A stretch of 64,000 nt of DNA from Leadbettera azotonutricia ZAS-9 (GTDB taxonomy: Bacteria > Spirochaetota > Spirochaetia > Treponematales > Breznakiellaceae), in the NCBI RefSeq assembly GCF_000214355.1, contig NC_015577.1:868001-932000 (forward strand), given 5' to 3'. The notes below the pieces were generated by a model. It made no database searches. It worked only from the letters and a program-made list of their open reading frames with translations, and had not been told where the DNA came from. Made by a program: the position numbers and the translations under genes. Below, one piece after another: positions 29,447 to 53,560 of the stretch (position 1 is the first letter of the stretch; each line of letters begins with the position of its first letter).

Positions 29447-29461
29447 ATTTTATCCTCTCTC

Positions 29462-32666: not shown

Positions 32667-32696
32667 TAGCACTTAAAAAGTGAATCTTTTGGAGCG

Positions 32697-32729
32697 GCCG
32701 CAATGCTCTCCTTTCCTCCACATTGCGGC
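32697..32729 (+). other. Intercistronic hairpin between binding protein and ATPase genes
   Basis: GCCGCAATG (32697-32705) and CATTGCGGC (32721-32729) form a perfect 9-bp stem with a 15-base loop. No strong T-run follows. It could stabilise the upstream mRNA and raise binding-protein yield, or attenuate the rest of the operon. Confidence 0.65.
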
Positions 32730-32752
32730 TGTTCCTTTAATTCAAAGAAAAC

Positions 32753-34521: not shown

Positions 34522-34531
34522 GGAGGAATTG

Positions 34532-37073: not shown

Positions 37074-38470
37074 TGGCTGCTATAACTACCGAAACAAAAG
37101 TACAAAATTATACTGCTGATCACAACTATATTGAGCGGCCCCGCTATTTCTGTTCTTTCGGCGGCGCCCTTTCTACTCTGGAAGCCTTGCCCGAAACAAT
37201 TCCGGTGCTCCATGCGGCCGGTGGCTGCGCGGGAAGCATAGCCTGGGGACAAAACGGCGGCTCCGGTTTGCAGGTAGGGGGATATTGCGGAGGCCTCGCC
37301 GTACCCAGCTCCAATATAGGCGAAAAAGAAGTAATTTTCGGCGGATCAAACAGACTCACCCAGGAAATCCGCAATACCCTTGAAGTAATGGACGGCCGTC
37401 TTTTTGTGGTCATTACAAGCTGCGTTACGGAAATGATAGGCGACGATGTGCAGGCAGTGGTTTCCGAAATCAATTCGGAAATAGAAGAAAAAGAGATCGA
37501 TGCAGGACTGGTTTTTGCCCGTACCGGTGGTTTTAAAGGCAATTCCTATTACGGGTATGATATTGTACTAAGCGCAATTGCAAATCAATATGTGCAGAAA
37601 CCAATAAAAAAAGCTAAGGGCCTGGTGAATATTTTTGGCATTGTGCCCTATATGGACAGTTTTTGGCGGGGCAATCTGGAAGGGGTCCGTAAAACCCTGG
37701 AACTTCTGGGGCTGAAAGTGAATACTTTTTTTACCGATGAAGACTCCCTTGATGGCTTAAAAAAATCAGGCGAAGCGGAACTCAATATTGTAGTTTCCGA
37801 TTTATACGGCATTGAAGCGGCTCAAGCCTATAAGGACCGTTTCGGAGTCCCCTATATTGTATCTTCCCTTCCTGTGGGTCCTACGGCAAGCGCCAATCTT
37901 CTGCGCCAAACTGCGTCAGCCCTGCAGCTTGATATTGACGTGGAAAGGATTATCGAAAATGAAAACCGCAAATTCTACCGTTACCTCGAACCATTGACTG
38001 ATCTTTATTTTGACGCAGACCTTCAACGCTATGCAGTAATAGTAGCGGATGTAAATTACGCTGTGGCAGTTACCCGCTTCCTTTTCGATGATCTGGGCTG
38101 GATTCCCGTCCTTACCCAGTTTACCGAAATCCTGAACGAAGATCAGCAAAAAAATCTGGCGGCAAAACTTTCCGGGCCCGGGGGAATAAATCCCCTGGCA
38201 GTATTCGATACCAATGCCTCTGAAACCGGCCGTTACCTTCTCGATATTTACCCCCGGCGTGAAACCGACCTCTATGTGGACAGCCTGACGCCGGCCTTTG
38301 TCATCGGCAGTTCCCTTGAACGGGATTTGGCATTAAAACTTGGGGCTCCGCACCTTTCAGTGAGTTTTCCTGTTGCAAACCGTGCAGTGCTGAACCGGGG
38401 CTATACGGGATTTTCCGGCGGCCTCACCCTGGCCGAAGATCTGCTCAGCGCTGCGGTAGCCGCGCGCTAA
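37073..38470 (+). CDS. Nitrogenase-like beta (NifK-like) subunit of the corrinoid-linked operon
   Basis: The 465-residue NifK homologue keeps P-cluster-type cysteines Cys27 (RYFCSFGGA), Cys52 (AAGGCAGS) and Cys117 (TSCVTEMIGDD). Its start overlaps the NifD-like stop (TAATG), so equimolar coupled synthesis is likely. It should form a heterotetramer with the upstream product. The final part (LNRGYTGFSGGLTLAED) is like MarK's (GYAGYRGGLRLIED). The corrinoid-protein gene follows 12 bases later. Confidence 0.85.
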   Translation: MAAITTETKVQNYTADHNYIERPRYFCSFGGALSTLEALPETIPVLHAAGGCAGSIAWGQNGGSGLQVGGYCGGLAVPSSNIGEKEVIFGGSNRLTQEIRNTLEVMDGRLFVVITSCVTEMIGDDVQAVVSEINSEIEEKEIDAGLVFARTGGFKGNSYYGYDIVLSAIANQYVQKPIKKAKGLVNIFGIVPYMDSFWRGNLEGVRKTLELLGLKVNTFFTDEDSLDGLKKSGEAELNIVVSDLYGIEAAQAYKDRFGVPYIVSSLPVGPTASANLLRQTASALQLDIDVERIIENENRKFYRYLEPLTDLYFDADLQRYAVIVADVNYAVAVTRFLFDDLGWIPVLTQFTEILNEDQQKNLAAKLSGPGGINPLAVFDTNASETGRYLLDIYPRRETDLYVDSLTPAFVIGSSLERDLALKLGAPHLSVSFPVANRAVLNRGYTGFSGGLTLAEDLLSAAVAAR

Positions 38471-38482
38471 AGGAATAAAAAA

Positions 38483-39145
38483 ATGAGTGCAGAAGAATTA
38501 TATGTCAAATTGGCAGACGCCGTAGTGGACATGGACGAAGCAGAGGCGGTGAAACTTTCCAATCAGGCAGTGGAAGAAAAAGTTGAAGCTTATGACGCAA
38601 TCGACAAAGGGCTGGCCAAAGGCATGGAACGGGCAGGAAAACTCTTCGAAGAAGAGGAATATTTTGTGCCCGAACTCATCATCTGTTCCGATGCGATGAA
38701 TGCCGGTATCGCAATCCTCAAGCCCCATCTGAAGCAGGGTGAAACCGCTATCCGCCATCGCGGCGTGATTGGTGTCATTGAGGGAGACACCCACGACATA
38801 GGCAAGAATCTCGTCAAGATTATGCTTGAGTCCTCGGGCTTTGATATACTGGATTTGGGCCGTGATGTACCGCCTCAGACTTTTGTGGATAAGGCCATAG
38901 AATACAATGCAGATTTAATACTTCTTTCTTCATTAATGACTACCACCATGGACGCCATGGCGGACGTAGTAAAGATCCTTGAGAAGCAGGGAGTACGCAA
39001 TCAATTCAAGGTGGCTGTCGGAGGCGGCCCCATTTCCAAAGCCTTTGCCGATCGCATAGGCGCCGACGGTTATGGGAAAAACGCTACCGAAGCAGTACGC
39101 CTGGCTCAAAGCCTGGTGAGCGCAAACCAAGGTTTGGTAAAATAA
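38483..39145 (+). CDS. Corrinoid (cobalamin-binding) methyltransferase protein
   Basis: The 220-residue protein has a helical cap domain (residues 1-90) and a B12-binding Rossmann domain. The signature EGDTHDIGKNLVKIML gives Asp102-x-His104-x-x-Gly107, with His104 the lower cobalt ligand. It is like MtbC/MttC/MtvC proteins that shuttle a methyl group on Co. Length and architecture are standard. It sits between the nitrogenase-like pair and an MtaA-like gene, overlapping the latter (TAATG). It should be the common carrier for the methyltransferases in this operon. Confidence 0.95.
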   Translation: MSAEELYVKLADAVVDMDEAEAVKLSNQAVEEKVEAYDAIDKGLAKGMERAGKLFEEEEYFVPELIICSDAMNAGIAILKPHLKQGETAIRHRGVIGVIEGDTHDIGKNLVKIMLESSGFDILDLGRDVPPQTFVDKAIEYNADLILLSSLMTTTMDAMADVVKILEKQGVRNQFKVAVGGGPISKAFADRIGADGYGKNATEAVRLAQSLVSANQGLVK

Positions 39146-40179
39146 TGGCAGATGTGTTTTCCCCCAGGGAAAGGCTGCTGCGGAAACTAAACAAGCAGGG
39201 AACAGACCGTCCCCCTGTAATTTGTCCCGGGGGTATGATGAACGCCGCCATTGTGGACGTGATGACGAAAACCGGCCATGCCCTTCCGGAAGCCCACCAT
39301 GAAGGCGCTTTGATGGGGGATCTCGCCTATGATGTATATGAACAAACAGGCTTTGAAAATATCGGCATACCTTTCTGCATGACCATAGAGAGCGAAGCCC
39401 TGGGCAGCGCGGTGGATTATGGTTCTCTTAAATGTGAACCCAAGATAAAGCAAGAAGCCTTTCCGTCCGTGAAAGATGTGATCTTCTCGCCGTCTAATTC
39501 AATAGAAAAAAACAGCCGCGCCGCAGCAGTAATAAGCGCAGTGAACAATCTTTCGAAAAAATATCCCGATATCCCGGTGATAGGCAGCCTTACCGGCCCT
39601 GTCAGTACTGCGGCGTCTCTGGTAGATCCTATGACTTTTTTTAAGGAACTGCGGCAGAATAAGGACGGCGCCCATCGGCTGCTTGCTTATGTTACCGGGG
39701 AACTAATCGTCTGGGCTAAATTGATTGCTGATAACGGGGCTGCGGCCATATCTATCGCAGACCCTACGGCAACCGGAGAAATATTGGGGCCCAAGTTTTT
39801 TGAGGAATACGCCCTTCACTATATAAATCTGTTAATCGAATCCATTCATGGAATGGGCCTCCCGGTTATCGTGCATATCTGCGGAGATGTCCGTGTTGTG
39901 AAGCAGCATCTCTATAATCTAAAAGGCGATTCTCTCAGCGTGGATGCCATGGTAAACCTTGAGGAATTAAAAAATGAAAAACAGGATCTCACCACCATGG
40001 GAAACCTGAGTACCTATCTCCTTGAATCGGGAGTGCCTAAAACCATAGGCGCCGGAGCTGCAGCCCTGTTAAGAAAGAATATTGATATTATCGCTCCGGC
40101 CTGCGGCCTTTCCACCTCTACTCCTCTCGAAAATATCCGCACCTTTACCGAAACCATAAAATCCACGGCAAGGGCATAA
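39145..40179 (+). CDS. MtaA/MtbA-like methylcobamide methyltransferase
   Basis: The 344-residue URO-D-fold protein carries His244 and Cys246 (VHICGD) and Cys320 (PACGLS), the zinc ligands that activate a thiol acceptor in MtaA and MtbA. In organisms without coenzyme M, related proteins use other acceptors such as tetrahydrofolate or act on the donor side. It directly follows the corrinoid-protein gene and precedes the activase, the arrangement of a complete corrinoid methyl-transfer module. The acceptor here is unknown. Confidence 0.88.
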   Translation: MADVFSPRERLLRKLNKQGTDRPPVICPGGMMNAAIVDVMTKTGHALPEAHHEGALMGDLAYDVYEQTGFENIGIPFCMTIESEALGSAVDYGSLKCEPKIKQEAFPSVKDVIFSPSNSIEKNSRAAAVISAVNNLSKKYPDIPVIGSLTGPVSTAASLVDPMTFFKELRQNKDGAHRLLAYVTGELIVWAKLIADNGAAAISIADPTATGEILGPKFFEEYALHYINLLIESIHGMGLPVIVHICGDVRVVKQHLYNLKGDSLSVDAMVNLEELKNEKQDLTTMGNLSTYLLESGVPKTIGAGAAALLRKNIDIIAPACGLSTSTPLENIRTFTETIKSTARA

Positions 40180-40180
40180 A

Positions 40181-41800
40181 ATGCCGCAGATAAATTTCGT
40201 ATACCAGGGGAAAACCGTTGATATCGAAAATGAGAAAACAATCCTTGAGGCCGCGCGTCTTGCGGGTGTAACCATAGAATCTCCCTGCAACGGAATTGGT
40301 TCCTGCGGCAAATGCAAGGTGGGGACTTCCGGCGGGGTAGTACTGGCCTGCCAGCATCATGTCCGCGAAGATATGGAAGTCATCGTTAAGGATTACAACG
40401 ATGAAAACAAAAGCCTTCAGATATTATCAGAGGGCAGCAATTTTGATTATGATATTCAGCCCTTTATAACTAAAAGAGTATCCGGCAGTAAAACTGAAGT
40501 TTATGGCGGAGGAAAGCTTTTGGGAATTGAAGATGGGGATACTTCGTCTTTTATATACGGCCTTGCCATCGATATTGGTACAACAACATTAGTAACGGCC
40601 CTGGTTGATTTAAGCAATGGTAAAACCCTGGCTTCAGAATCAACTCTGAACCCCCAGGCAGCCTATGCCCAGGATGTATTGGGCCGTATTCACTTTGCTT
40701 CCAAAGATGACGGCCTCGCGGTTCTTTACAATTCTTTTATAGAAGTTCTTGTAACCATGATCCTCGCCCTCACAAAAAAAGCCGGTCTAAAGAGAGAACA
40801 TATTTACGAGCTTGTCTATTCGGGCAATACAACCATGTTGCACATTGCCACTAATACAGATCCTTATTCTCTGGGGCAGTTTCCCTATACCCCAAATCTT
40901 TTTGGAGCCGAGCACCTGTCCGCTAAGGATCTTCATATTTCCCCCTTCGGCATTATTTGGCTCCCTCCCATTATCTCTGCTTATGTAGGAGCAGATATCA
41001 CCTCGGGAATTTTGGCTTCTGCCCTGAATAAGAAAAAGGGAACCACGGTTTTTATTGACATTGGCACTAATGGCGAAATGGTATTGGCCAAAGATGGGAG
41101 GCTGGCAGCTTCATCAACTGCGGCAGGACCCGCATTCGAGGGAATGAATATCAGCTGCGGTATGAGGGCCAGTCAGGGCGCTATTGAATCTTTCAGTATT
41201 GCCGACGGTGTCTTTTCTTTTGGAGTCATTGGATATAACCCGCCTTGGGGAGGGGAAACGCCCATCACCGGTATATGCGGAAGCGGCCTCCTGGACATAG
41301 CAGGGGAACTGGTAAGAACAGGTCTCATCGGCAAAAACGGCCGTTTTATCAATCCTGGAAATGAAAATAACGCTACTCCCCTGATAAGCCGGATACGTCC
41401 CCATGAGGGTAAAAATGCATTCTTTGTTACTGATGATATATACCTGAGTCAAAAAGATATACGCCAAATTCAACTTGCAAAAGGCGCCATAAGATGCGGC
41501 ATAGAAATGCTTCTTACTCATTTTAATATGAACGCAGCTGATATTGACTCACTGGAAATAGCCGGTTCCTTTGGTTATCACCTTAACGAGGCAAGCCTTC
41601 TCAACATCGGCCTCCTGCCTGCTGCATTTGCCGGTAAAACTGCCTTTGTAGGTAATACTTCCATGTCAGGAGCAACGGCTTTCCTGCTGAATACCACCTT
41701 TCGTTCCCAAATGACTGAGCTGGTAAAGGAGATAGATGTAGTTGAACTAGCCAATGATGAAAATTTTGAAAAGAATTTCATTAAACACTTGAGTTTTTGA
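40181..41800 (+). CDS. RamA/ASKHA-type corrinoid activation protein with [2Fe-2S] domain
   Basis: The 539-residue protein begins with a ferredoxin-like domain whose cysteines Cys36, Cys42, Cys45 and Cys57 (SPCNGIGSCGKCKV, LACQHH) bind a [2Fe-2S] cluster. The rest is an ASKHA ATPase domain of the DUF4445 type (IDIGTTTLVTALVDL, FIDIGTNGEMVLAKDG, ICGSGLLDIAGELV). Such proteins use ATP to reduce inactive Co(II) corrinoid to Co(I). Presence in the operon means Co(II) reduction need not be the job of the nitrogenase-like pair. One base separates it from the upstream gene. Confidence 0.93.
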   Translation: MPQINFVYQGKTVDIENEKTILEAARLAGVTIESPCNGIGSCGKCKVGTSGGVVLACQHHVREDMEVIVKDYNDENKSLQILSEGSNFDYDIQPFITKRVSGSKTEVYGGGKLLGIEDGDTSSFIYGLAIDIGTTTLVTALVDLSNGKTLASESTLNPQAAYAQDVLGRIHFASKDDGLAVLYNSFIEVLVTMILALTKKAGLKREHIYELVYSGNTTMLHIATNTDPYSLGQFPYTPNLFGAEHLSAKDLHISPFGIIWLPPIISAYVGADITSGILASALNKKKGTTVFIDIGTNGEMVLAKDGRLAASSTAAGPAFEGMNISCGMRASQGAIESFSIADGVFSFGVIGYNPPWGGETPITGICGSGLLDIAGELVRTGLIGKNGRFINPGNENNATPLISRIRPHEGKNAFFVTDDIYLSQKDIRQIQLAKGAIRCGIEMLLTHFNMNAADIDSLEIAGSFGYHLNEASLLNIGLLPAAFAGKTAFVGNTSMSGATAFLLNTTFRSQMTELVKEIDVVELANDENFEKNFIKHLSF

Positions 41801-41805
41801 TTATT

Positions 41806-42645
41806 ATGCGCATTGATATACCTGTAGAAAAAAACATTTTTGATTTAAACGCCTATTGTTCGGGTCATATTACGGGCAGCAGAAACCCAACCGATCTTGA
41901 TACGCACTCCGGCATCGACGCATTTCCTTATAATTTTGTTACCGAAGCCCTGGCATTGGGCGCCACGACAGAAAAGACCGCCGGAGGTTTTGAAACTTTA
42001 CAATATCTTTTTTCCGATCCTGATGATCTTTTAAATCTTCCTCTCATGGACGAGCAGCCTCCTGTTATTCATCTTCTTGAAATGATTGAAAAGGCTCCCC
42101 CTGAAAAAATAATTTTGCTAAAAGTCAATGGCCCTTATTCGATTCTGGCCTCCCTGATTTCTCCGCATTTATTCTACCGCTGGCTTGCAAAAAACAAAGT
42201 TCAGGTTCATGCAGCCCTCGAAAGAATCAATACCGGCCTTGTTTCATATATTCTCAAGGCTGCAGCAAAGGGAGTTAAAATTCTCTCCCTGGCCGACCCT
42301 TACGCCAATCCTGAAATTTTAGGGGAAAAGCATTACCGCGAATTTGCCGCTTCTTATCTTGTAAAATTATTGAAAGAAATTACAAACAAAACGCCGGGAT
42401 TGGTTATCCATCTTTGCCCGCACAATTCCCTCATTCTTGAAAAATACGGATTTTTGAAGAGCCGTGCTGAATATACCGCCGCAGTCCCGCCTGTGCAAAC
42501 TAAAACCGAAGCTTTGGCTTCGGATGAGTCCTACATCAATCTGCTTATTGCCCTAACCCTGCTGAAAAATTCAGTCCTTTTGGGACATCAGTGTATTTAT
42601 TCTGAAAAACCATTCAGTTATAAATACTTGCTTTTATCTGGATAA
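41806..42645 (+). CDS. Short, divergent URO-D-fold protein
   Basis: The 279-residue protein is related to the URO-D superfamily but shorter than its neighbours. His202 and Cys204 (VIHLCPHN) and Cys263 (LLGHQCIYS) could reproduce the zinc site. ATG 41806 is taken; the frame opens at TTG 41797, overlapping the preceding stop. It is the last gene of the run. It may be a second acceptor-specific methyltransferase or a non-catalytic partner. No terminator is clear in the 48 bases before the convergent regulator gene. Confidence 0.7.
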   Translation: MRIDIPVEKNIFDLNAYCSGHITGSRNPTDLDTHSGIDAFPYNFVTEALALGATTEKTAGGFETLQYLFSDPDDLLNLPLMDEQPPVIHLLEMIEKAPPEKIILLKVNGPYSILASLISPHLFYRWLAKNKVQVHAALERINTGLVSYILKAAAKGVKILSLADPYANPEILGEKHYREFAASYLVKLLKEITNKTPGLVIHLCPHNSLILEKYGFLKSRAEYTAAVPPVQTKTEALASDESYINLLIALTLLKNSVLLGHQCIYSEKPFSYKYLLLSG

Positions 42646-42693: not shown

Positions 42694-43605
42694 TTAAAAT
42701 TCTTCGTATCTGCCTGTCTGTGAAATATCGTAGCCGCCGAGAATTTCAAGATCCTGTTTAAACTCCGGTGAACCGACATAGCTCGAAATACTTCTCACTG
42801 CGGAAGTATTTTTATCTGAAAGACGGAATACAAAATCGTACCATTCAAGCTGCAGGGGGATAAAGTTAATGTCCTTTATGCTTTCGGCGCCTCTGGCACA
42901 GCCGCAGCCCAGATCCGCCCCGCCCTTTGCAACGATACCGGCGCAGGCCAGGTGGGAACTCGACTCCCGGGTATAGCCCTGTATATCCGAAGTGTCTATA
43001 TCCAGCCCTGCCAGTTTCTGATCCAGCAGTATCCGGGTGCCGCAGCCTTTTTCGCGGTTGATCATGGTGATCCCGGGTCTGGCAAGATCCTGCCAGTCTT
43101 TTATATTGAGGGGGTTGTTTTCCTTTACATAGAATCCCTGCATACGCCCTGCAAGGCGCAGTACGCCTACCCGTAATCCCGGAAGCAGACGGTGCATATA
43201 AGGATAGTTATAGGTATCGGTTTCCGCATCCCAGAGGTGAGAGGCCGCCATGGTGATCCTGCCGTTGTAGAGGGCAAAAAGACTGTTGTAACAACCCATG
43301 TAGGAACGGAGGACAGCTTCCCCGGTTCCGGCTATTTTGGACATCATGAGATCGATACAGGCATCCTGACCCGAAATAATGATAGATGTACCGCGTTCAG
43401 CAGGAAGTTCTGCCGGAGCAGACTTTGTCCCGGGGCCTGTTTTGCTTGCCTCCAGGTAGGAATTTATATCCGCTTGGGAAACCCGCACCTGTTTCCCCAC
43501 TCTGGAGGAAGACAACTCTCCCCGCTTGATAAGTCCATAAACCGTTAATTTTTTAATTCGCAGCTGATGGGCCACATCCTCCGCGGTTAATAAGGTAGAT
43601 ACCAT
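42694..43605 (-). CDS. Regulator with excisionase-type HTH and periplasmic-binding-like sensor domain
   Basis: The 303-residue protein joins a MerR/excisionase-like HTH (LTAEDVAHQLRIKKLTVYGLIKRGEL, residues 6-31) to a cytoplasmic PBP_like domain (from about residue 70). The latter contains NREKGCGTRILLDQ, typical of molybdate/tungstate-binding regulator modules. It probably senses an oxyanion or other small ligand. It is the last gene of the convergent operon. Control of that operon or of the corrinoid/nitrogenase-like genes is inferred from position. Confidence 0.78.
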   Translation of the reverse strand: MVSTLLTAEDVAHQLRIKKLTVYGLIKRGELSSSRVGKQVRVSQADINSYLEASKTGPGTKSAPAELPAERGTSIIISGQDACIDLMMSKIAGTGEAVLRSYMGCYNSLFALYNGRITMAASHLWDAETDTYNYPYMHRLLPGLRVGVLRLAGRMQGFYVKENNPLNIKDWQDLARPGITMINREKGCGTRILLDQKLAGLDIDTSDIQGYTRESSSHLACAGIVAKGGADLGCGCARGAESIKDINFIPLQLEWYDFVFRLSDKNTSAVRSISSYVGSPEFKQDLEILGGYDISQTGRYEEF

Positions 43606-43611
43606 AAAAAA

Positions 43612-44655
43612 TTATACCTTTTTAAAAAGAGAATTACAATTAAAAATGGGCCGTTCATCGTAAAAAACAGTTTCCAATTCATTGACCCTTTGGGCGATAT
43701 CTTTTTCATACAGGTAGTCCCAGCCTACCCAGCGCAGTTTTGCCCCCTCGGGCAGATCGTGGTGGACTTCGGGGTTCACATGAGCGAACCAGCCTTCTGC
43801 CATGGTTCGGCCCAGATCTTTGCCAAAGAGAAAGTCTGCACAGGCGTTTTGCTTTTCATCGTCCCCCTTTCTGAAAAGGGCGTACATGGGGTTAAGGACG
43901 GCTCCGTCTTCAGGCCAGATGAGTTCGAGGTAGTCACGCTTGGGAACCGCATGGGCGAAAAACCAGGAGATAAAGTAGACGCAGCAGCCGTCCCGGTTCC
44001 CCACTGCATTGGCCGCCATTTCCGGGGCCCTGCCCACAAAGCCTATATTGCGGGCCAGAGCGCGTATGCCCGCTTCCCCCTGCTCCTTGTGGATTTCCAT
44101 AAGCAGTAATTCTGAAATATCTTCCCATTTAAAACCCGTTCCCACACTTCCGGCATATTCGGATTTGGTGAGGTCGCGGATGCAGCGGGGAACAGGCCGG
44201 CCCTTCAGCCGCTGATGGTTCACCAGGAGTGCATAAGGCAAAGCGCCGAAAATATGAAAGAGGGAACGGGGGTCTTGAAGCGTCAGATCTCTGAAAAGCG
44301 AATTTGCCGGAGCAGCCTGGGGCCGCCCGGCAAACCATGTGCGTTTTTCCGGGTTTTTGAGCAGATCTCCCTGGAAAAATTCCCCATATCCAGAATCGCT
44401 TACCGCCAGGGGGAATTTTTCTTTTGACTCCACGGTAGAAATATTGTAATAAACATCCACACCGCAGCCCCCCATGGGTACCACGCCCCGAATTGGAGCT
44501 TTGTTTTCATTCCCGCAGCTTTTATTGTACTGCTCCTCATAGTCCTGCCAGGCTTTTGAAAACCGATCCTTGATGGGACAATGAACATAGCCCAAAAAAT
44601 CCAAATCTTCCCGTTTGGAGTCGGGGATCATTTCGAAAACTGTGTACTTTTTCAT
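43612..44655 (-). CDS. Cytosolic binding-protein-like protein (Fe3+/type 2 SBP fold)
   Basis: The 347-residue protein resembles extracellular solute-binding proteins of the iron or thiamine type (FFQGDLLKNPEKRTWFAG, WPEDGAVLNPMYALFRKG) but has no signal peptide or lipobox. A cytoplasmic location is therefore likely. It has cysteines at VPMGGCGVD and NRDGCCVYF. It lies between the regulator and an ABC-like ATPase with gaps of only 1-6 bases. A role as a carrier of a metal or oxyanion inside the cell is inferred. No exact family is known to me. Confidence 0.6.
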   Translation of the reverse strand: MKKYTVFEMIPDSKREDLDFLGYVHCPIKDRFSKAWQDYEEQYNKSCGNENKAPIRGVVPMGGCGVDVYYNISTVESKEKFPLAVSDSGYGEFFQGDLLKNPEKRTWFAGRPQAAPANSLFRDLTLQDPRSLFHIFGALPYALLVNHQRLKGRPVPRCIRDLTKSEYAGSVGTGFKWEDISELLLMEIHKEQGEAGIRALARNIGFVGRAPEMAANAVGNRDGCCVYFISWFFAHAVPKRDYLELIWPEDGAVLNPMYALFRKGDDEKQNACADFLFGKDLGRTMAEGWFAHVNPEVHHDLPEGAKLRWVGWDYLYEKDIAQRVNELETVFYDERPIFNCNSLFKKV

Positions 44656-44656
44656 A

Positions 44657-45448
44657 TTACTTTCCTTTATAATATAGATATTCGTTCATATCAAAATCGA
44701 GGGTTTTCCCTTCCCTGAGTTTTTCACGGAGGGTTAAAAATTTTCCGTTAAGCTCAGATAGTAAAACCGCGTTCGCTCGTTCTGCCGCAGAGGTTTCTAT
44801 AACGGCCTGAACCGCGCCGTTGCGTATGCAAAGGCGCTTCTCCCCCAGAAGCGCCAGAACCGGATCATGAGTTGATAGTATTACTATTTTATCTTCTGCT
44901 ACCAGAAGATCCAGGCTTTTCTGCCGGTCAACACCGGCGTTTTCAAGCTCGTCGATAAGCACCACCGGGGAGGGGCTTAAAAGGGCAGTATCGGCTATCA
45001 TCAGGGAACGGCTCTGGCCCCCTGAAAGCTGGGTTAGGGGAGTGTCCGCAGACAGGGCTTCTCCGGTAAGGGTATTGGCGGAAGCAACTATACGATCCAC
45101 CAGTACTTCCGGATTATTATCACTGCCGGCGCGGCATTCTCCGTGCATTAAAATAAATTCCCTAACCGAAAGATCCATCACAAAGTTCATGTTTTGTGAA
45201 AGCTGGGCCGTCATACGGGTTTCCAGGGAGTAACGCATTTCAGTATCCGGAACTTTTTGATCCACCAGGATTTGCCTGCCTGTAGGAGTGTCTTTTTGGG
45301 CAAGGCAGCTCAGGTCTTCCAAAAAGCGGCTTTTCCCTGCGCCCGTAGGACCCACAATACAAAGGATATCCCCGGGATGTAAAGTCAGGTTCAGATTTTC
45401 AGGGCGCCCTTCTTTGTCATGGCCGCCATAGACAGTAATACTAAGCAT
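44657..45448 (-). CDS. Soluble ABC-type ATPase of the metal-handling operon
   Basis: The 263-residue protein has Walker A GPTGAGKS, signature LSGGQSRSL, Walker B VVLIDELENAG and the switch histidine in STHDPVL. No permease is encoded nearby, so it may work as a soluble ATPase or with a membrane partner elsewhere. Start 45448 is supported by AGAGGG at 6 bases and an 8-base overlap with the GTPase stop; a longer frame begins at 45502. Its Walker B has EL instead of the common EP, which is unusual for importers. Confidence 0.8.
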   Translation of the reverse strand: MLSITVYGGHDKEGRPENLNLTLHPGDILCIVGPTGAGKSRFLEDLSCLAQKDTPTGRQILVDQKVPDTEMRYSLETRMTAQLSQNMNFVMDLSVREFILMHGECRAGSDNNPEVLVDRIVASANTLTGEALSADTPLTQLSGGQSRSLMIADTALLSPSPVVLIDELENAGVDRQKSLDLLVAEDKIVILSTHDPVLALLGEKRLCIRNGAVQAVIETSAAERANAVLLSELNGKFLTLREKLREGKTLDFDMNEYLYYKGK

Positions 45449-46163
45449 GCGTACCCTCTGCCGGAAGTCCCTGGGGAATGGCAATTTTTTGGTGCAGCAC
45501 ACTGTTGGTCTCGTAATCCGGGCCTATGCGGGTTTCGCCCAGACAGTATGAACAGAGGGCCTGGGGTAAGGGAAAACGGATTTGAGCGTGTTCCAGGCTC
45601 GTGGTTTCCGGAGCATCAGTGACAAACCGGGCAAGTTCAAAAGCTCCCTCCCCGGTAAGGCCGTTTACAAAAAGGAAGCGGGCGTTTTTGTTTGCCTTCC
45701 TGGCGCGGAAGGCAAAAACTTCCCGCTCCGCCTGGGAAACAATATCACCTTTAGTAATAACCACCATATCTGCGTAGAGCAGCATGGGACCGATCTTTTT
45801 AGGTGTGTTAACCCCCGAAAGGCAGTCAATGACGCAGAGGGATCTGATACCCCGTATGTGAGGTGAACAGCGGTTGCAGAGCCCTGCGCTCTCGGAAAAA
45901 AGAAAATCGAGTTTCTGCGAAATTCCCCATTGAAGGCAGTCTTCAATATTAGTAATAAAATAATGATCCGGACAGAGGCTGCCGGAAATGCCCGTGAGTA
46001 CCGGGATATTCCGTCTGCGGTACTGTTCGTCATCGGCAGTGGAGATGCAGTCGAATTTCACGGCCCCCACGGAAAAGCCCTGGGCTATGAGACATTCGGC
46101 AGTTTTGATGGCCGCAGAGGTCTTCCCTGCTGAAGGGGGTCCTGCAAATGTTACCAGTTTCAA
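45441..46163 (-). CDS. G3E-type (CobW/HypB/UreG-like) P-loop GTPase
   Basis: The 240-residue protein opens with MKLVTFAGPPSAGKTSA, a P-loop, and has VVITKGDIV for base recognition. Cysteines cluster in SAGLCNRCSP and in CSYCLGET near the C-terminus, likely metal ligands. G3E proteins deliver Ni, Co or Zn during enzyme maturation. A TTG start at 46163 is chosen because AGGAGG lies 5 bases before it; the frame is open to 46187. The start overlaps the methyltransferase stop (TTGA). Cobalt or iron handling for the corrinoid or nitrogenase-like enzymes is a reasonable inference. Confidence 0.78.
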   Translation of the reverse strand: MKLVTFAGPPSAGKTSAAIKTAECLIAQGFSVGAVKFDCISTADDEQYRRRNIPVLTGISGSLCPDHYFITNIEDCLQWGISQKLDFLFSESAGLCNRCSPHIRGIRSLCVIDCLSGVNTPKKIGPMLLYADMVVITKGDIVSQAEREVFAFRARKANKNARFLFVNGLTGEGAFELARFVTDAPETTSLEHAQIRFPLPQALCSYCLGETRIGPDYETNSVLHQKIAIPQGLPAEGTHA

Positions 46164-46801
46164 GACAGCCTCCTCAGGACAAGCCAATCTCCGCTGGCCT
46201 CGTGAATCACCGTATAACTCTGTATGCCCATAGCGTCCAAAACCAGGGCGTAATCATCAGGAGAAAACCCCTCGGTTTTTTTGCGCCGCTGTTCGCCCCA
46301 GTCAAGGCCGTTACGCTCCGACATCTCCCGGTAAATCTGCGTTTTAAGTTCCAGCGATCCGTAACCTCCGCCTAGTACCGCCGCTCCGTCCGGCGCAAGG
46401 ACGCGCCAAATTTCAGCCAGGCTTTTCTCCTTGTCCCAAAACCACATAGCCCCCCGGCTGAGTATCAAATCTGCCGAAGCGGAATCCAAAGGCATGGCGT
46501 GAACATCAGCGCAGAGAGTTTTGACCTGCGGCCTCCCTGCTATCCTTTTTTCCGCAAGCTCTATTGCATGGGGGTTTGAATCCAGAAGTATAAGGGAGCC
46601 TTCAAAACCTTTTTCAAGAGCCGCCAGTCCCAAATGCCCGCCCCCGCAGCCCACATCGATGCAGACACCCTTGCGTATACCTGCCAGTTCCAGAAGGCGG
46701 CCGGAAATTACCGGATAAATGGGCTTAAAGACTTCTTCGGCAATCTGATCAAATTCACGGGCTTTTACAGCGGCCTTGCCGTCATCCTCATTCTTTTCCA
46801 A
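46160..46801 (-). CDS. Class I SAM-dependent methyltransferase
   Basis: The product has the SAM-binding motif CIDVGCGGGHLG, the acidic LLDSNPHAIELA and the DLILSRGAMWFW post-motif, typical of class I (UbiE/Coq5-like) methyltransferases. The substrate is unknown. TTG 46801 gives a protein of 213 residues with a 14-base overlap onto the DUF364 gene; TTG 46825 is an alternative start. Neither has a strong ribosome site, so translation is probably coupled. It lies between DUF364 and the GTPase in the operon. Confidence 0.8.
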   Translation of the reverse strand: MEKNEDDGKAAVKAREFDQIAEEVFKPIYPVISGRLLELAGIRKGVCIDVGCGGGHLGLAALEKGFEGSLILLDSNPHAIELAEKRIAGRPQVKTLCADVHAMPLDSASADLILSRGAMWFWDKEKSLAEIWRVLAPDGAAVLGGGYGSLELKTQIYREMSERNGLDWGEQRRKKTEGFSPDDYALVLDAMGIQSYTVIHEASGDWLVLRRLS

Positions 46802-47537
46802 GGCCCACCCGCTTTCCGGCGTCAAAAATGCCGGCTGTGTTATTCTCGCCCCTTACCACCGCCGCACAGAGTTCCGGGTCGCTTACCGCAAAACCCTGAA
46901 GATCCAGTATGCCAAAACCAAAGAGCACAGGAGCCAACGGTACACTGGGCCCGACAAGTATCAGGCCGCAATGGCGCGAAAGTTCCAGAAGCCGCAGAAG
47001 GGTTTTGTTGATAAGGGTAACGCCCGTGGCAAAAACAAAATCCTGATAGGGAAGGAGAAATTCACAGGCTGAATCGGGGTAATCCCCTTTTTGGGGCCGT
47101 TTTTCAAGGATAGAAAGCTCACAGAGGGGAGCTAAAGTCCTTTCCAGATGGGGAAAATGTCCAATTACCGTAACTTTCTTACCTCGCGCCCGTTCTTTCC
47201 ATGCATCAAAGGCGTTCATATCAGGTTTTTGAAGGCATTTTTTCACTGTATCCTGATCAGGTGAGTTGTACCACGCATTGATTGCCGCTATACCCAGGCT
47301 TGCTTCGCCAAAATTCCACGATTTGGCAACCTGGGCCAGTTCCTGCAAGGCCATTCCTGCCAAATTCGGAGACAAAATCCGCGGTCTGGTCTCGTCTTCA
47401 GGGCTTTTTACCAAGGTCATGGCAAGCCCCAGGCCCTTACCTGAACGTACCATTGTCCAGTGAGGGCCTTCAAAAGCTTCATCCACCCTGGCTTCAGGAG
47501 GAATTCCTTCTATCAATATATCATAGAGTTCCCACAT
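46788..47537 (-). CDS. DUF4213/DUF364 putative metal-chelate protein
   Basis: The 249-residue protein matches the DUF364 family, with an N-terminal DUF4213-like part. Its signature is in LILVGPSVPLAPVLFGFGI. The family has been described as a possible heavy-metal chelation domain and often lies beside metal or nitrogenase-like genes. It is the first gene of the convergent operon. No strong ribosome site or promoter was found in the AT-rich 100 bases before it, although TATGAT (read on the minus strand, near 47557) could be a -10 box. Confidence 0.78.
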   Translation of the reverse strand: MWELYDILIEGIPPEARVDEAFEGPHWTMVRSGKGLGLAMTLVKSPEDETRPRILSPNLAGMALQELAQVAKSWNFGEASLGIAAINAWYNSPDQDTVKKCLQKPDMNAFDAWKERARGKKVTVIGHFPHLERTLAPLCELSILEKRPQKGDYPDSACEFLLPYQDFVFATGVTLINKTLLRLLELSRHCGLILVGPSVPLAPVLFGFGILDLQGFAVSDPELCAAVVRGENNTAGIFDAGKRVGLGKE

Positions 47538-47637
47538 ACTGAAACTAACATATCATAATAGAAACAAACAATTCTAGTAGTTTTATAAAAAAACAATATA
47601 AAACAAATATAAACATAATGGACCAGTACAATACCGC

Positions 47638-47666
47638 TTGACACTTTCTGATCAGTTCAATATTAT
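47638..47666 (+). promoter_or_regulatory. Promoter of the surface lipoprotein-TonB-importer run
   Basis: TTGACA (47638-47643), a 17-base spacer and TATTAT (47661-47666) form a near-consensus sigma-70 promoter. It is 31 bases before the first start codon. No cobalamin riboswitch sequence was recognised in the leader. Confidence 0.75.
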
Positions 47667-47697
47667 GCCCTTAGTATATCTTTTAAAGGAGGATATT

Positions 47698-48789
47698 ATG
47701 GTTTTTAGAATGGATTCAAAGGCCCACAAGGGCTTTGTGAGGGTTTTTGGTTTTGCCCTGGTGTTGGCAGCGGCATTGATAATTGGTGGGTGTTCGACGG
47801 ATGGGGATGATCCTGGACCCACAAAGGTACCAGTGACCTGGAAACCGGCGACGTTCCCGTTCGGAGTTACCCAAGGTTTTGAGAATGTTGCTTATGGAAA
47901 CGGCGTGTTCGTAGCCACCACCAAAACTGCTGGAAAAATATTCTGGTCAGAAGATGGGGTAGCATGGAAAGAAGCGAACACAGATTACGCCGATTTTGTA
48001 GATGCGGCCAGAAACTTTGTTTTTTTTGTTAATAATGGATTTTTAACGGCGGGCCGTACTAATGTTGGTAATTGGGCCAAATCCACTGATGGAAAAACAT
48101 GGAGCGATGTTACAGCAGCACCTTTGGCGCAGGCTGCAGGGGGTGCTGCTTACGGCAATGGTACCTATGTTGTAGGTTCTAACGGATCCAAAGTATTTAT
48201 CAGTACTGACTTTACAAGCTGGACAGAGAAAGCCACCGGTATAGGCAGCGCCGAGACAGGAGGGGTCATTAATTGGGTTAATGGCGTTGCCTATGGAAAC
48301 GGAAAATTTGTCATAACCGGCATGAATGCTAAAATTGGTTATTCTAATGACAATGGCGATACGTGGGTTGATTCTACACCCCTGGACAATGAGGGAGGTA
48401 AATTATTTGGCGGTGCCACCGGTAGTAGCGGTAATCAAGGTGCCGTAAATCAAGTTGTATTCGGTAATGGACTGTTTATGGCTGTCGGGGGGAATCCCAT
48501 TCCCAGTACGCAAATTGCAGCTACTTCGTCAGACGGAATTACGTGGAAACAAACCGATGATATAAAAGTAACTGGGACCGGTAATTACATACATGTGGGT
48601 TATGGTGCGGGCGTATACATCATCGCACACGAAAGTGGCGGAACAGTTCCGGCTTCATATTCAACCGATGCATTCACATGGACAGAGATTGATCAGACCA
48701 ACCTTACAGGTGTTAACGGTATTGCCTACGGCGCCGGTAAATTTGTAATGGTTGGTAGTGGTGGTATAGTTTATTCAATACCCGAGTAA
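47698..48789 (+). CDS. Lipoprotein with six-fold beta-propeller-like repeats
   Basis: The 363-residue protein has a lipoprotein signal ending in LIIGGC. The mature part has about six repeats, each with AYGNGxFV and a 'W-S-x-D-G-x-x-W' element (WSEDGVAWKEA, STDGKTWSDVT, SNDNGDTWVDS, TSSDGITWKQT). This is the BNR/sialidase-like propeller pattern. AAGGAGG precedes ATG 47698. It is probably anchored at the cell surface. A binding function linked to the TonB-dependent receptor downstream is possible, but the ligand is unknown. Confidence 0.8.
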   Translation: MVFRMDSKAHKGFVRVFGFALVLAAALIIGGCSTDGDDPGPTKVPVTWKPATFPFGVTQGFENVAYGNGVFVATTKTAGKIFWSEDGVAWKEANTDYADFVDAARNFVFFVNNGFLTAGRTNVGNWAKSTDGKTWSDVTAAPLAQAAGGAAYGNGTYVVGSNGSKVFISTDFTSWTEKATGIGSAETGGVINWVNGVAYGNGKFVITGMNAKIGYSNDNGDTWVDSTPLDNEGGKLFGGATGSSGNQGAVNQVVFGNGLFMAVGGNPIPSTQIAATSSDGITWKQTDDIKVTGTGNYIHVGYGAGVYIIAHESGGTVPASYSTDAFTWTEIDQTNLTGVNGIAYGAGKFVMVGSGGIVYSIPE

Positions 48790-48792
48790 ACT

Positions 48793-50664
48793 GTGAAAAT
48801 ACACCTTGTAACCGGAACTCGTCCGACTGTTTGGACGGCTTTGTTTGCCCTGGCGTTGGTTTTCAGCGCCGTGTTCTTTCCGGGCTGCCCTTCCGAGACC
48901 CGCGGCGATGACATAACCCATCTTCTTCCCGGTCCCCGTTCCATACAGGTCACCGCAAGAAACGAGTCGCTTGTCCTGCAGTGGACAAAGATCGTCCCTG
49001 CACAGGGCATCGTTCCGTATTACGGGGTGTATTATAGTTCCGCATCAGCTATCCCCGAATCTGCCATAAAATGGGATGATGTCCATGCTGGCTCATCCCA
49101 GCTGGTAACATCCACCATCACCGGTCTTGTTAACGAAATTTCTCACTATGTATGGGTAAAGGCGATATATCCCGGCCTGGGGAACTCGGACTTTACCCCT
49201 GTTGAAGTGGGAATACCAATCCCGCCGCCTCAAAAGCCCGGATCCTTAACCGTTATTCCCGGCGAAGAAATGCTGGAAATTACCTGGACCACAGTAGCAC
49301 ACGCTTTTACCTATGAGGTGTATTACAAAGCCGATGGAACAGGCGTCGAACCCCCGCCTGACACGGCTGAAACCATGAAGACGGTTTCCAATCCGGGAAT
49401 AGTGCTACTCGGATTAACCAACACGACAAACTATGCAATTTGGGTCAGGGCCCTTAATACCGCAGGGAATTCCCCTGCTTATTCAACAAGCGACGGAATA
49501 CCCCAACTCGCAGTCAGCGTCCCTGGCTCTGGCAAAACGCCGGATAAACCAAGCGTTGTACCGGGAAACAACAAACTTGCCCTTACCTGGAATCAGGTTT
49601 TAGGCATATCGTCATACAAATTGTATTACAATACGTCTAACGATTTTTCTACTGCAACACCGGTTGCGGGAACCATCCCGGCCAATGCCCCTGCGGTAAG
49701 CGCCGAAATTACCGGGCTTGTCAATGATATGCCCTACTATGTATGGGTTGCCTCATTAAATTTGCAGGGAGAATCACCTGCAAGTGAATCCGCAAGCGGC
49801 ACTCCCAAGGCAAAAGATCCCATTAATTTCAGTAACCTCAAATTTGCATTGGGAACAGCCTCGGCAGAATATATCTTTGCAGTCGATCTTCCTCCGAGTG
49901 TTTTTTTCCCCGATGGCAGGCCCAATACCGACCGCCTGACCCGTGTGCAGGAGACCGCCCTGGGAAATCTCTTTACCGATGGCGTGGCGTGGTATGTCAG
50001 AAATAAACTTAATGAGCCTATTGACTTTGTATTCATTAACGGCGGCCTGATAGACAATGTACTCCCCAGGGGTACTGTTACCGTGGGGACTGTCGCGGGC
50101 ATAACCCAGCCGGATGCCCGGACAGATAAAATCTTCCTGCTTACCATGAAGGGAGACAAGCTGAAACTGTTTTTTGAAGACATGGCGGGCAAAGAAACAA
50201 CTATTGAGCCTGGTGATGTTTCCGGTGTAGTACATACCGGCAGGGGCGGCCCTCACAACACCGGCTTCTTCGGTACCGTATCAAAAGAAGTACGGTATAC
50301 CCTTCAATATTATAAAGCTCCGGAATTTACCGAGGGAGACCCTGCAATAAGTTCCGATATCAGCGAGCCTTATTATCACGGGTTTATCAAACCGGGAACC
50401 CTCACGATTAATGGCGTACCCATTAATGATAGTCAAGACTATCGTATCTGTACCACCGATTATCTTGCCGCAGGAGAGTACTTCACCGGGCTATATACCG
50501 ATGGAACTGATGAAAAGTCATTCAGCATTCCCTTCTGGCATGGTGTAGCGGAATATATCTATGATCAGGGAACAATAACACCATACCTTGATGGTCGTAT
50601 CAAAATTGAAGGTGGTGTTCCCCTGCCCCCGCCCTGGATTCCGGGTGATCTGGTAAAGCCTTGA
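48793..50664 (+). CDS. Lipoprotein with fibronectin-III repeats and 5'-nucleotidase C-terminal domain
   Basis: A GTG start at 48793, 3 bases after the upstream stop, gives 623 residues with a lipobox FFPGC at about residue 30. Three FN3-type domains follow up to about residue 340 (repeated 'NxLxLxW...YxVYY...ITGLVNxxxYYVWV'). The C-terminal part is the 5'-nucleotidase C-terminal domain (ETALGNLFTDG, FVFINGGLIDN, LLTMKGDKLK). The metallophosphatase domain that normally precedes it is absent, so catalysis is doubtful. The domain may have been kept for nucleotide or nucleotide-loop binding. It lies directly before the receptor gene. Confidence 0.82.
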   Translation: MKIHLVTGTRPTVWTALFALALVFSAVFFPGCPSETRGDDITHLLPGPRSIQVTARNESLVLQWTKIVPAQGIVPYYGVYYSSASAIPESAIKWDDVHAGSSQLVTSTITGLVNEISHYVWVKAIYPGLGNSDFTPVEVGIPIPPPQKPGSLTVIPGEEMLEITWTTVAHAFTYEVYYKADGTGVEPPPDTAETMKTVSNPGIVLLGLTNTTNYAIWVRALNTAGNSPAYSTSDGIPQLAVSVPGSGKTPDKPSVVPGNNKLALTWNQVLGISSYKLYYNTSNDFSTATPVAGTIPANAPAVSAEITGLVNDMPYYVWVASLNLQGESPASESASGTPKAKDPINFSNLKFALGTASAEYIFAVDLPPSVFFPDGRPNTDRLTRVQETALGNLFTDGVAWYVRNKLNEPIDFVFINGGLIDNVLPRGTVTVGTVAGITQPDARTDKIFLLTMKGDKLKLFFEDMAGKETTIEPGDVSGVVHTGRGGPHNTGFFGTVSKEVRYTLQYYKAPEFTEGDPAISSDISEPYYHGFIKPGTLTINGVPINDSQDYRICTTDYLAAGEYFTGLYTDGTDEKSFSIPFWHGVAEYIYDQGTITPYLDGRIKIEGGVPLPPPWIPGDLVKP

Positions 50665-50684
50665 ACCGGCGATCTACGTAGTGA

Positions 50685-52823
50685 ATGAAGAATAGTAAAC
50701 TGCGAAAAAAATATTTTTATCTCTCCGGACCTATGATTCGATGCGCCTTATTTGTATTTGTGTTTTTTCTCTCTTCATTTATTCCTTGTTTTGCCCAGGG
50801 GATAGATACTGTTGAGGAACCCCTTGCAAGGGACGAAGTTTTCAGACTCCCTGAGGCCGAGGTGACCGCTGATCGCGATACTCCGGAATTGGTTACCCGT
50901 GAAGAAATGGACAGGGAAGGGGCAAATGATCTTTGGGAGGCGGTCAAGTCCGTACCGGGGGTAATCCTCTCCGGAGGCGGCAGACGCAACGATTCTAATT
51001 TTTCAGTACGGGGCTTCGGTTCTGATAGTGTGCCTGTTTTTGTGGATGGCATCATAGCGGCTAACCCCTACAGGGGCGAAGGAGACAGCGCCCGGCTTCT
51101 TACTGGGGATATGGAAAGCATCGAAATAAAGAAAGGGTTCAGTTCGGAACTGCTGGGGGCAAATACCCTGGGCGGAGCGGTTCTTCTGCGTACCGCAAAA
51201 CCAAAAAACCCTTTTGAAGCATCCCTTAAAACCAGTTTTGATTTCGATAGTGTCTTTCATTATGCCGATTCCACCAGCGTGGCAAGCATAGGAACCAAAC
51301 TGGATTTCTTTTATGCCAAGGCGGTGTTTCAGTACCGGGATGTGGATCACTTTAGGCTTCCCGGCAGTTTTGAGCCCACAGCGAAGAACCCCCAGGAAAA
51401 GGGAGACAGGCTTTGGTCTGATTCTGATGATATAAAGCTCACCCTTATGGCAGGTGTGACCCCCATTTCGGATATGGATATCTGGCTGACTTATGTATAC
51501 CAGGATGCGGACAAGGGGTATTCGCCTCCGGATGTCACAACTTCAGATTTTTCTATTTGGCACTGGCCGGTGTGGAAGCGGTACAGCGTTTCTCTTAACA
51601 GTACCTTTGGTATTGGTCCATTTTCATTTGACGCCCTGTTTTATTTTGACAAATACGACAACCGCCTTGATGAATATTACCACTGGAAGGCTTACGAGTT
51701 GGGTATTCATGCCCCGCATTCGGATTATGATGAATATTCTCTGGGAGGCCGCCTTATTGGGAAATGGGAGATAAACAGCTGGAATATGCTGCAGGGAGCG
51801 GCCACTTATAAAAAAGAAGATCATCGCGGTTTACGCGGCGACATGGTGAATGAGAATGAGCTAACCGAGGAAATGCACGTTAATGAAGATACCTGGTCTT
51901 TGGGCGCTGAATATTCGATAAACCCATGGGAGCCTCTGACCATAAAGGCGGGGTTGGGATTGGACAGCCTCATACCCAATGAATACTGGAATGATGAAAA
52001 TGAATACAACAAGCTTCTGGATGCGGATTACTTTATTGTTAAAACCCAAAAAATGTTTCTCTATACATGGCAAGCTGGTGTTTTTTATAAATTTCCCAAA
52101 AGTGAAGAAGGTTCCCGGAATCATGAACTTCGGTTTACCTATGCACGAAAGAATCATTTCCCAAATATGGCCCAGCGTTACTCAACCCGGTTCGGCACAA
52201 GCCTGCCCAATCCCAACCTGGGGCCCGAGATCGCCAATCACTTTGAATTGGGATACTATTTCAATTTCAACAACAGCGAAAAATTTATTTCAGCCTTCAC
52301 CCTGAATACCGCTGTGTATTACAGCATTGTAGACGGGAAAATTGTAACTGTAGAATGGCCGAATCCCCACTATTCAAGCGCGTCCGTGGATCTTTCCAGG
52401 AACCTCGATTCAACATCATTTTGGGGTTTTGAATTGGCTCCGGAACTCTCTTTGAAAGATTTTTTAAGCTCTGGCCTGGCTTTTTCCTGGAATCGTTATA
52501 CAATCAATCACAGTCAGAATGGCATAGAAGCCCTAACATATTATCCTGAAATTACGCTTAATGGGTATGTAGTTTATAAACCGATCAAACTGCTTTCAAT
52601 TATTCCCCGAGTAGAATACATCGGTTCCCGCTATGCGGATACCGAAGGGAAATCCGAACTTGATTCCTATTTCCTGGCGCATCTTAAAGTAAATGCCGAC
52701 ATTGGCAAATATTTCAGCCTTTCGGCAGGTGTCGAAAATATCTTTGATACCTATTATGAGATCCGCCAATACTCTCCCATGGCGGGGCGCAGTTTTACAT
52801 TCTCCTTTACGGCGAGGTATTAG
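50685..52823 (+). CDS. TonB-dependent outer-membrane receptor
   Basis: The 712-residue protein has a signal peptide ending FAQG, a TonB box-like stretch, a plug domain (LWEAVKSVPGVILSGGGRR, NFSVRGFGSDSVPVFVDGI, GGAVLLRTAKP) and a C-terminal 22-strand barrel ending in SFTFSFTARY with the terminal aromatic. It imports a large ligand such as cobalamin, haem or a metal chelate. TonB follows at once, then a periplasmic importer of the B12/siderophore type. The order suits corrinoid uptake for the operon at 31-42 kb, but iron-chelate uptake is just as consistent. Confidence 0.93.
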   Translation: MKNSKLRKKYFYLSGPMIRCALFVFVFFLSSFIPCFAQGIDTVEEPLARDEVFRLPEAEVTADRDTPELVTREEMDREGANDLWEAVKSVPGVILSGGGRRNDSNFSVRGFGSDSVPVFVDGIIAANPYRGEGDSARLLTGDMESIEIKKGFSSELLGANTLGGAVLLRTAKPKNPFEASLKTSFDFDSVFHYADSTSVASIGTKLDFFYAKAVFQYRDVDHFRLPGSFEPTAKNPQEKGDRLWSDSDDIKLTLMAGVTPISDMDIWLTYVYQDADKGYSPPDVTTSDFSIWHWPVWKRYSVSLNSTFGIGPFSFDALFYFDKYDNRLDEYYHWKAYELGIHAPHSDYDEYSLGGRLIGKWEINSWNMLQGAATYKKEDHRGLRGDMVNENELTEEMHVNEDTWSLGAEYSINPWEPLTIKAGLGLDSLIPNEYWNDENEYNKLLDADYFIVKTQKMFLYTWQAGVFYKFPKSEEGSRNHELRFTYARKNHFPNMAQRYSTRFGTSLPNPNLGPEIANHFELGYYFNFNNSEKFISAFTLNTAVYYSIVDGKIVTVEWPNPHYSSASVDLSRNLDSTSFWGFELAPELSLKDFLSSGLAFSWNRYTINHSQNGIEALTYYPEITLNGYVVYKPIKLLSIIPRVEYIGSRYADTEGKSELDSYFLAHLKVNADIGKYFSLSAGVENIFDTYYEIRQYSPMAGRSFTFSFTARY

Positions 52824-52824
52824 G

Positions 52825-53484: not shown

Positions 53485-53495
53485 AAAGGAGCATT

Positions 53496-53512
53496 GGGAA
53501 CCGTTGGTTCCC
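53496..53512 (+). other. Intercistronic hairpin between tonB and the binding-protein gene
   Basis: GGGAACC / GGTTCCC form a perfect 7-bp stem with a GTT loop. It lacks a following T-run, so it is more likely an mRNA-stability or partial attenuation element than a terminator. Confidence 0.55.
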
Positions 53513-53560
53513 TTCCGATTAAACCTTTGCAGTTAACGCTGCGTATATATAGGAGCATAT

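Follow-up and report, generated by a model that had tools for sequence, protein, structure and literature searches.

Which metal does a compact operon of anaerobic bacteria handle inside the cell, and for which enzyme? The question is raised by a stretch of 64,000 nucleotides (hereafter the window) of the spirochaete Leadbettera azotonutricia ZAS-9, positions 868001-932000 of a genome held in a single contig of 3,855,671 bases and 99.99% complete. Six minus-strand genes at 42694-47537 of the window encode a DUF4213/DUF364 protein, a class I S-adenosylmethionine (SAM) methyltransferase, a UreG/HypB-like GTPase, a soluble ABC ATPase, a substrate-binding protein (SBP) and a regulator with HTH_17 and PBP_like domains. 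To our knowledge, the delivery of molybdenum (or iron) to the assembly of the iron-molybdenum cofactor of nitrogenase (FeMo-co) in anaerobic diazotrophs without NifQ is not settled. We propose, with a probability of about one half, that the operon is a cytosolic metal-allocation module whose client is the assembly of the Mo nitrogenase encoded at 2.96 Mb of the same genome, molybdenum being the most likely metal. All functional readings given here rest on sequence, synteny and co-occurrence.

Organization and conservation of the operon

The six genes overlap or abut one another (gaps of 0-6 bp), with refined starts at a TTG (46163) for the GTPase and at an ATG (45448) for the ABC ATPase. Their position, overlaps and Pfam matches bear out the original prediction, made from the letters of the window, of a six-gene minus-strand operon of these families. 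The operon is real, and it is not a product of chance because the GTPases of its core trio are 55-83% identical across many phyla. The core trio of GTPase, soluble ABC ATPase and SBP is kept, whereas the exact six-gene set is not conserved.

At least 554 related loci came from a genome scan that used the GTPase as query, and 80 of them were kept; gene calls in the fetched loci were mechanical and the counts given below depend on the chosen thresholds. The usual order in related loci is SBP-GTPase-ABC. Termite-gut relatives keep DUF364-methyltransferase-GTPase-ABC-SBP, and their fetched loci showed no PBP_like regulator. No permease gene lies within the six-gene operon, the nearby FecCD permease having its own FecE ATPase. 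The core is an uncharacterised conserved module present in hundreds of anaerobes, and no description of it was found in the literature on DUF364, DUF1858, AnfO together with the GTPase, or a molybdate-responsive PBP regulator.

Co-occurrence with nitrogenase

In a maximum-likelihood tree of 87 GTPases, clade 1 (30 rows, support 99/96) is marked by the hybrid cluster protein (HCP) and a HypA-like zinc-ribbon gene; the remaining rows, window included, are called clade 2, a working label for a group that is not necessarily monophyletic. Nearly all clade-2 genomes (51 of 53) encode proteins of the nitrogenase family (PF00148), compared with 2 of 29 in clade 1 (Fisher p=4e-17), the 53 being chosen by similarity to the window, without phylogenetic correction, and including one genome (G011) with a divergent GTPase. 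Matches of nitrogenase grade (E<=1e-100) were present in 43 clade-2 genomes.

Since this genome set was chosen by similarity and is uncorrected, an even draw of 343 genomes was made from the class of Clostridium G087. There, nitrogenase passed the TIGR01862 cut-off in 6 of 7 clade-2 genomes, one of the 7 being G087, the centre of the draw, compared with 18 of the 336 others (p=4e-7); clade 1 was present in 11 genomes, only one of them with nif. The 24 nif genomes of this draw divide into 6 with clade 2, 2 more with a divergent GTPase and 16 with neither, which indicates that the module is an accessory and not a requirement. A draw from the class Bacteroidia, with the GTPase in 1 of 346 genomes, allowed no replication.

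The operon is decayed in G010, a genome 98% complete, where residues 1-49 of the GTPase, with its P-loop region, and residues 1-31 and 54-139 of the ABC ATPase, roughly one third of that gene or more, were not found and no nitrogenase-family match was obtained; this decay is a hint in support of the link. G064, a metagenome-assembled genome (MAG) of unknown completeness, has intact module genes and no nitrogenase-family match. Two side observations concern these loci and the more distant ones. Short tandem repeats lie upstream of DUF364 in the G010 locus (L022). Divergent GTPase relatives occur in L160, L161, L162, L164, L165, L166 and L023, some beside SsuABC-like transporters, and two of the genomes with such relatives (G407, G415) have nitrogenase.

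Gene neighbourhoods of the module

A plus-strand uptake cluster (47638-56407), absent from the original prediction, is divergent from the operon. Its FecB/FecC/FecE proteins (53561-56407) are 59-73% identical to a set that divergently adjoins DUF364 in L025, and in L021 a TonB receptor stands just upstream of FecC-FecE-FecB-GTPase-ABC, the receptor and FecBCE being 52-59% identical to those of the window. The TonB/FecBCD cluster (50685-56407), and not the operon that converges on the module from its other side, is the conserved partner. The window FecB has no NCBIfam match at E<=1e-10.

Across the loci, a FecCD importer was found in 22/63 of clade 2 and 0/29 of clade 1, and a TonB receptor and DUF364 in 14/63 and 13/63 clade-2 loci, respectively. 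In Spirochaetota, Verrucomicrobiota and Clostridia alike, genes for DUF364, the methyltransferase, FecBCD and a TonB receptor are repeatedly found near the GTPase gene; the methyltransferase gene is also present in the clade-2 loci L035, L037, L043, L047, L056, L171, L173 and L174. Mop proteins were seen in 9/63 clade-2 and 0/29 clade-1 loci (p=0.05). HCP is adjacent in 10 of the 29 clade-1 loci (L018, L019, L055, L065, L078, L082, L084, L090, L091, L099) and in no clade-2 locus; the sister clade is an uncharacterised HCP-linked system. The HypA-like zinc-ribbon gene was observed in 14 of the 29. Two candidate markers were set aside: ModABC adjacency does not differ significantly between the clades (10/63 versus 3/29), and the DUF1858 domain on the SBP, considered for the HCP clade, was also seen by eye on the clade-2 SBPs of L035, L050, L063, L074 and L089.

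The module is directly linked to nif genes in Clostridium sp. LS. ModABC (opposite strand), a GTPase-ABC fusion, the SBP, a PBP_like regulator, AnfO and one unknown gene are followed there by nifH-I1-I2-D-K-E-N, and beyond nifN come a protein with a homocitrate-synthase domain, another PBP_like regulator, another Mod-like transporter and finally FecC/E/B. Relatives of the window regulator, 39-45% identical, also stand beside the module in L031, L035, L041, L046 and L061. The PBP_like domain of the window protein matches the C-terminus of the MoeA-type PRK14498 (E=8e-50), and its fold matches ModA, TupA, PstS and LysR effector domains about equally.

Concerning DUF364, the window protein combines PF04016 and PF13938, the pair that characterizes the Dhaf4260 family. 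Before its start (47538-47640), and in L024, L026, L027, L029 and L030, a T/G-rich element like TTTGTTTGGTTT was noticed by eye; it may belong to a promoter or regulator site common to these loci. In L172 (G212), also by eye, a GTPase-ABC-DUF364 cluster adjoins ThiC-like and radical SAM-like genes, and the ThiC-like genes are perhaps BzaA/BzaB for the lower ligand of B12.

Properties of the core proteins

The window GTPase has the P-loop GPPSAGKTS and the guanine motif TKGD, matches PF02492 above the cut-off and belongs with the G3E GTPases; the [TSN]KxD motif is found in 109 of 110 collected sequences. CPDH, which aligns with the CPH metal-binding site of UreG, is present in all 110, as is the ESAG-C-RC motif, a count that is partly circular because about 23 of the sequences were selected by this motif. 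The equivalog cut-offs of HypB and UreG are not reached (TIGR00073, 32.9/121.2 bits; TIGR00101, 29.6/204.2). In the ABC ATPase, the Walker A, LSGGQ, Walker B and H-loop motifs are invariant or nearly so among 97 sequences. The two proteins are fused into a single one of 512-522 residues in three Clostridium loci, which argues for a physical complex.

No export signal or lipobox was found on the window SBP or on the readable SBPs of both clades, as judged by inspection and hydropathy, without a dedicated predictor. These proteins begin directly at the first strand or with a DUF1858 domain, which is N-terminal in many of them. All 28 aligned SBPs, whose mean column identity is 30%, keep one cysteine (C26 of the window protein) of a CP(x)K motif. 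The lack of a signal in every readable SBP, together with this cysteine, makes the signal-less state a defining trait; the original prediction had noticed the missing signal correctly and taken it for an oddity, which a family-wide trait is not. The AF2 model (pLDDT 86, pTM 0.87) is predicted to resemble FutA1 (2pt2; Z 20.3, rmsd 3.5 over 283 residues), with Z of about 20 for FutA/FbpA proteins in general.

Client, metal and proposed mechanism

The window genome has nif genes at C1:2,960,120-2,965,667 and no MoaC in its complete sequence, so that nitrogenase is probably its only Mo client. Among 52 clade-2 genomes, 18 lack MoaC, and nitrogenase-family proteins are present in 16 of these 18; with MoaC missing in so many, window genome included, molybdenum cofactor (Moco) enzymes were rejected as the sole explanation. 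NifQ (PF04891) is absent outside Pseudomonadota and in 47 of 53 genomes searched, and has no match in the window genome (G000). Two narrower hypotheses did not hold: a strict replacement of NifQ, given that five Pseudomonadota have both, and a specificity for the alternative (V or Fe-only) nitrogenases, AnfG/VnfG being present in 13 of 76 genomes searched. In the Clostridia-class sample, the module accompanies AnfG/VnfG in all four genomes that have these proteins.

The idea of metal delivery, already put forward in the original prediction, is in agreement with the CPDH motif of a UreG/HypB-like GTPase, the ferric-binding-protein fold of the SBP, the FecBCD/TonB, ModABC and Mop neighbours and the co-occurrence with nitrogenase. 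In the mechanism that we propose, the TonB receptor and the FecBCD importer (50685-56407) would import a metal or metal chelate, which the DUF364 protein and the methyltransferase may modify or release. The cytosolic SBP would hold the metal, aided by the invariant cysteine of CP(x)K, and the GTPase and soluble ABC ATPase could form one nucleotide-driven machine handing it to the client, the HTH/PBP_like protein acting as a putative sensor of a metal oxyanion. A bolder version is more doubtful and remains tentative: an undescribed GTP/ATP-driven cytosolic metallochaperone, with a non-exported binding protein as a part, would supply Mo to FeMo-co assembly in anaerobes that lack NifQ, and the sister clade would likewise serve HCP.

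Several observations weigh against this allocation of Mo to nitrogenase. Nitrogenase in general does not require the module, as neither a clade-2 nor a divergent copy is present in 16 of the 24 Clostridia-class nif genomes, and the spirochaete sample has 3 nif genomes of 5 without it. Conversely, G391 has clade 2 without nif, and the Syntrophomonas genomes G091 and G104 have weak nitrogenase-like proteins only. Five Pseudomonadota, as said, have the module in addition to NifQ. ModA genes are also found near 3 of the 29 HCP-clade loci, and Mod adjacency therefore does not separate the clades. Lastly, the closest structural matches of the SBP bind iron and not molybdate, and the association of the sister clade with the Fe-S-O protein HCP also speaks for iron. 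On balance we favor molybdenum over iron as the metal of the module by about two to one, iron keeping a real share.

Alternative explanations

The most serious alternative is an iron or Fe-S chaperone, which would supply ferrous iron or repair complex Fe-S centers, the client being HCP for clade 1 and nitrogenase for clade 2, with the Mo neighbours incidental to the Mo need of nitrogenase. It would account for the modelled likeness of the SBP to the iron binders FutA/FbpA, for HCP beside clade-1 loci and for the FecBCD/TonB neighbours, and intracellular FutA1 is a precedent (PMC6254336). We nevertheless consider it unlikely, since Mop occurs in clade 2 only, the regulator domain also occurs in MoeA fusions and most Clostridia-class nif genomes build nitrogenase without the module. 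Still less probable is that DUF364 and the methyltransferase synthesize or degrade a small metallophore while the trio removes the metal from the chelate taken up, nitrogenase being only the main consumer. The recurrence of the DUF364, methyltransferase, FecBCD and TonB genes around the GTPase is consistent with such chelate handling, as is the chelator synthesis proposed in the DUF364 structure paper (PMC2954201), but DUF364 is found in just 13 of the 63 clade-2 loci and no synthetase or ligase was recognised within the operon. An ordinary or degenerate ABC importer whose permease and signal peptide have been lost is hardly credible: the SBP and the ABC ATPase do belong to importer families, but the SBPs of both clades lack an export signal and keep C26, the GTPase is always alongside and can be fused to the ATPase, and the catalytic motifs are intact.

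A client next door was the suggestion of the original prediction, in which the module would assemble or repair cofactors for the adjacent corrinoid/nitrogenase-like (Mar-like) operon. The two operons do adjoin convergently in the window, their 3' ends 48 bp apart (42645/42694), and G059 and G065 have both. The gene order of the neighbour is kept in G065 (65-78% identity, 49% for the last MtaA-like gene) and partly in G059 (80-94%, up to the contig end), but in G065 the module and the nitrogenase-like operon are on different contigs and thus not adjacent. A test with the nitrogenase-like D protein (59 relatives, E<1e-50) was positive in 16 same-family genomes, many of the genomes being incomplete MAGs, and only two of the 16, the window genome and G030, have the module. 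Because of this incompleteness single absences are weak; 14 of 16 without the module is nonetheless clear, and the expected co-occurrence with the second D/K pair of the window was not borne out. For example, the module is missing from G012 (92% completeness), whose D protein is 72% identical, and G011 has a divergent GTPase only. Moreover, the nitrogenase-like enzyme of the neighbouring operon resembles the Mo-free MarDK, which, studied biochemically, has an [Fe8S9C] cluster with neither homocitrate nor Mo (PMC12552129). The part of the original prediction that concerns metal handling stands, whereas the neighbouring enzymes are very unlikely clients.

Returning to the proposed supply of Mo to nitrogenase, a compact and apparently nucleotide-driven module that tracks nitrogenase across about eight phyla, and is nif-linked and fused in Clostridium, makes the delivery question testable by deletion in a tractable host. 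If the proposal is true, the module would give a clear example of a binding protein of periplasmic type that functions inside the cytosol, and would be a candidate component for the engineering of nitrogenase.

Other features of the window

The features discussed above are collected in Table 1. Another nitrogenase-like D/K pair, the first of the window (21412-24234), lies beside an O-acetylhomoserine sulfhydrylase (20099-21409) and resembles a methylthio-alkane reductase set; its D protein and that of the second pair are about 32% identical. Genes for a NifB-like radical SAM protein, a NifH homologue and a cysteine synthase (28526-31338, minus strand) could serve both nitrogenase-like D/K pairs, and in G063 and G065 such genes are found together with a D/K pair.

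Table 1. Genes of the module, the uptake cluster and the convergent operon in the window (percentages, identity to the protein of the locus named).
Feature	Position	Strand	Matches and remarks
DUF4213/DUF364 protein, operon gene 1	46788-47537	-	PF04016 E=2e-29, PF13938; 3l5o (Dhaf4260) E=5e-59
Class I SAM methyltransferase (Methyltransf_11)	46160-46801	-	PF08241 E=1e-17; TTG start assumed
UreG/HypB-like GTPase	45441-46163	-	PF02492; CPDH, ESAGLCNRC and C-terminal CSYC motifs
Soluble ABC ATPase (ABC_tran)	44657-45448	-	PF00005
Cytosolic SBP (SBP_bac_6), ferric-binding-protein fold	43612-44655	-	PF13343 E=1e-45; invariant C26
HTH_17 + PBP_like one-component regulator, putative oxyanion sensor	42694-43605	-	PF12728, PF12727
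Probable lipoprotein, divergent from DUF364	47638-48789	+	No Pfam match; 51% L027, 33% L021
fn3 + 5'-nucleotidase C-terminal-domain protein	48793-50664	+	PF02872, PF00041; 71% L027, 53% L021
TonB-dependent outer-membrane receptor	50685-52823	+	PF00593, PF07715; 58% L021
TonB-like protein	52693-53484	+	PF03544
FecB-type periplasmic binding protein	53561-54631	+	PF01497; 67% L025
FecCD-type permease	54516-55622	+	PF01032 E=2e-88; 73% L025, 59% L021, 55% L174
FecE-type ATPase	55589-56407	+	PF00005; 59% L025, 52% L021
Convergent operon: SsuABC-like, MtaA-like, nitrogenase-like D/K, corrinoid protein, MtaA-like, RamA-like, MtaA-like	31590-42645	+	NCBIfam; not part of the module

Comparison with known systems

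The convergent operon has a described counterpart in the type I mlp clusters of Kountz and Balskus, whose MtaA-like proteins, corrinoid protein, Ram and nitrogenase-like genes it matches, the non-selenium branch having group IV-A nitrogenase-like (MarHDK-like) genes (PMC10418091). At least two Mlps, a corrinoid protein and Ram, the genes that define this type, are found on one strand at 34529-42645 (+). The six-gene operon, in contrast, is encoded on the opposite strand and lacks all of them. The ATP-driven MCR activation complex with its A2 component, which acts with nitrogenase-type [8Fe-9S-C] clusters, may be a functional analogue of the module, with different partners (PMC12176620).

For the individual proteins, the likenesses are closer. 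Over residues 17-336 the modelled SBP has the type II periplasmic binding protein fold of FbpA/FutA but is without their export signal, and its invariant Cys26 would fall about where FbpA has His9, a correspondence taken from aligned ranges and not from coordinates. The FecCD-type permease of the uptake cluster is its point of likeness to the molybdate importers MolBC-A and ModABC; MolBC-A, a type II importer, shows molybdate to be a possible cargo of transporters built in this way (PMC4031551). With UreG and HypB the window GTPase shares the P-loop G3E type, CPDH at the CPH site and TKGD at the NKxD position, and clade 1 shares with the HypB systems a HypA-like zinc-ribbon gene. The family differs from UreG/HypB by its own ESAGLCNRC and C-terminal CSYC motifs and by its partners, a soluble ABC ATPase and a cytosolic SBP, and no hydrogenase or urease genes were seen in the recurring neighbourhoods of the module. 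Its proposed role is that of NifQ, the supply of Mo to nitrogenase for FeMo-co, which the module would fulfil with proteins that have no sequence relation to NifQ.

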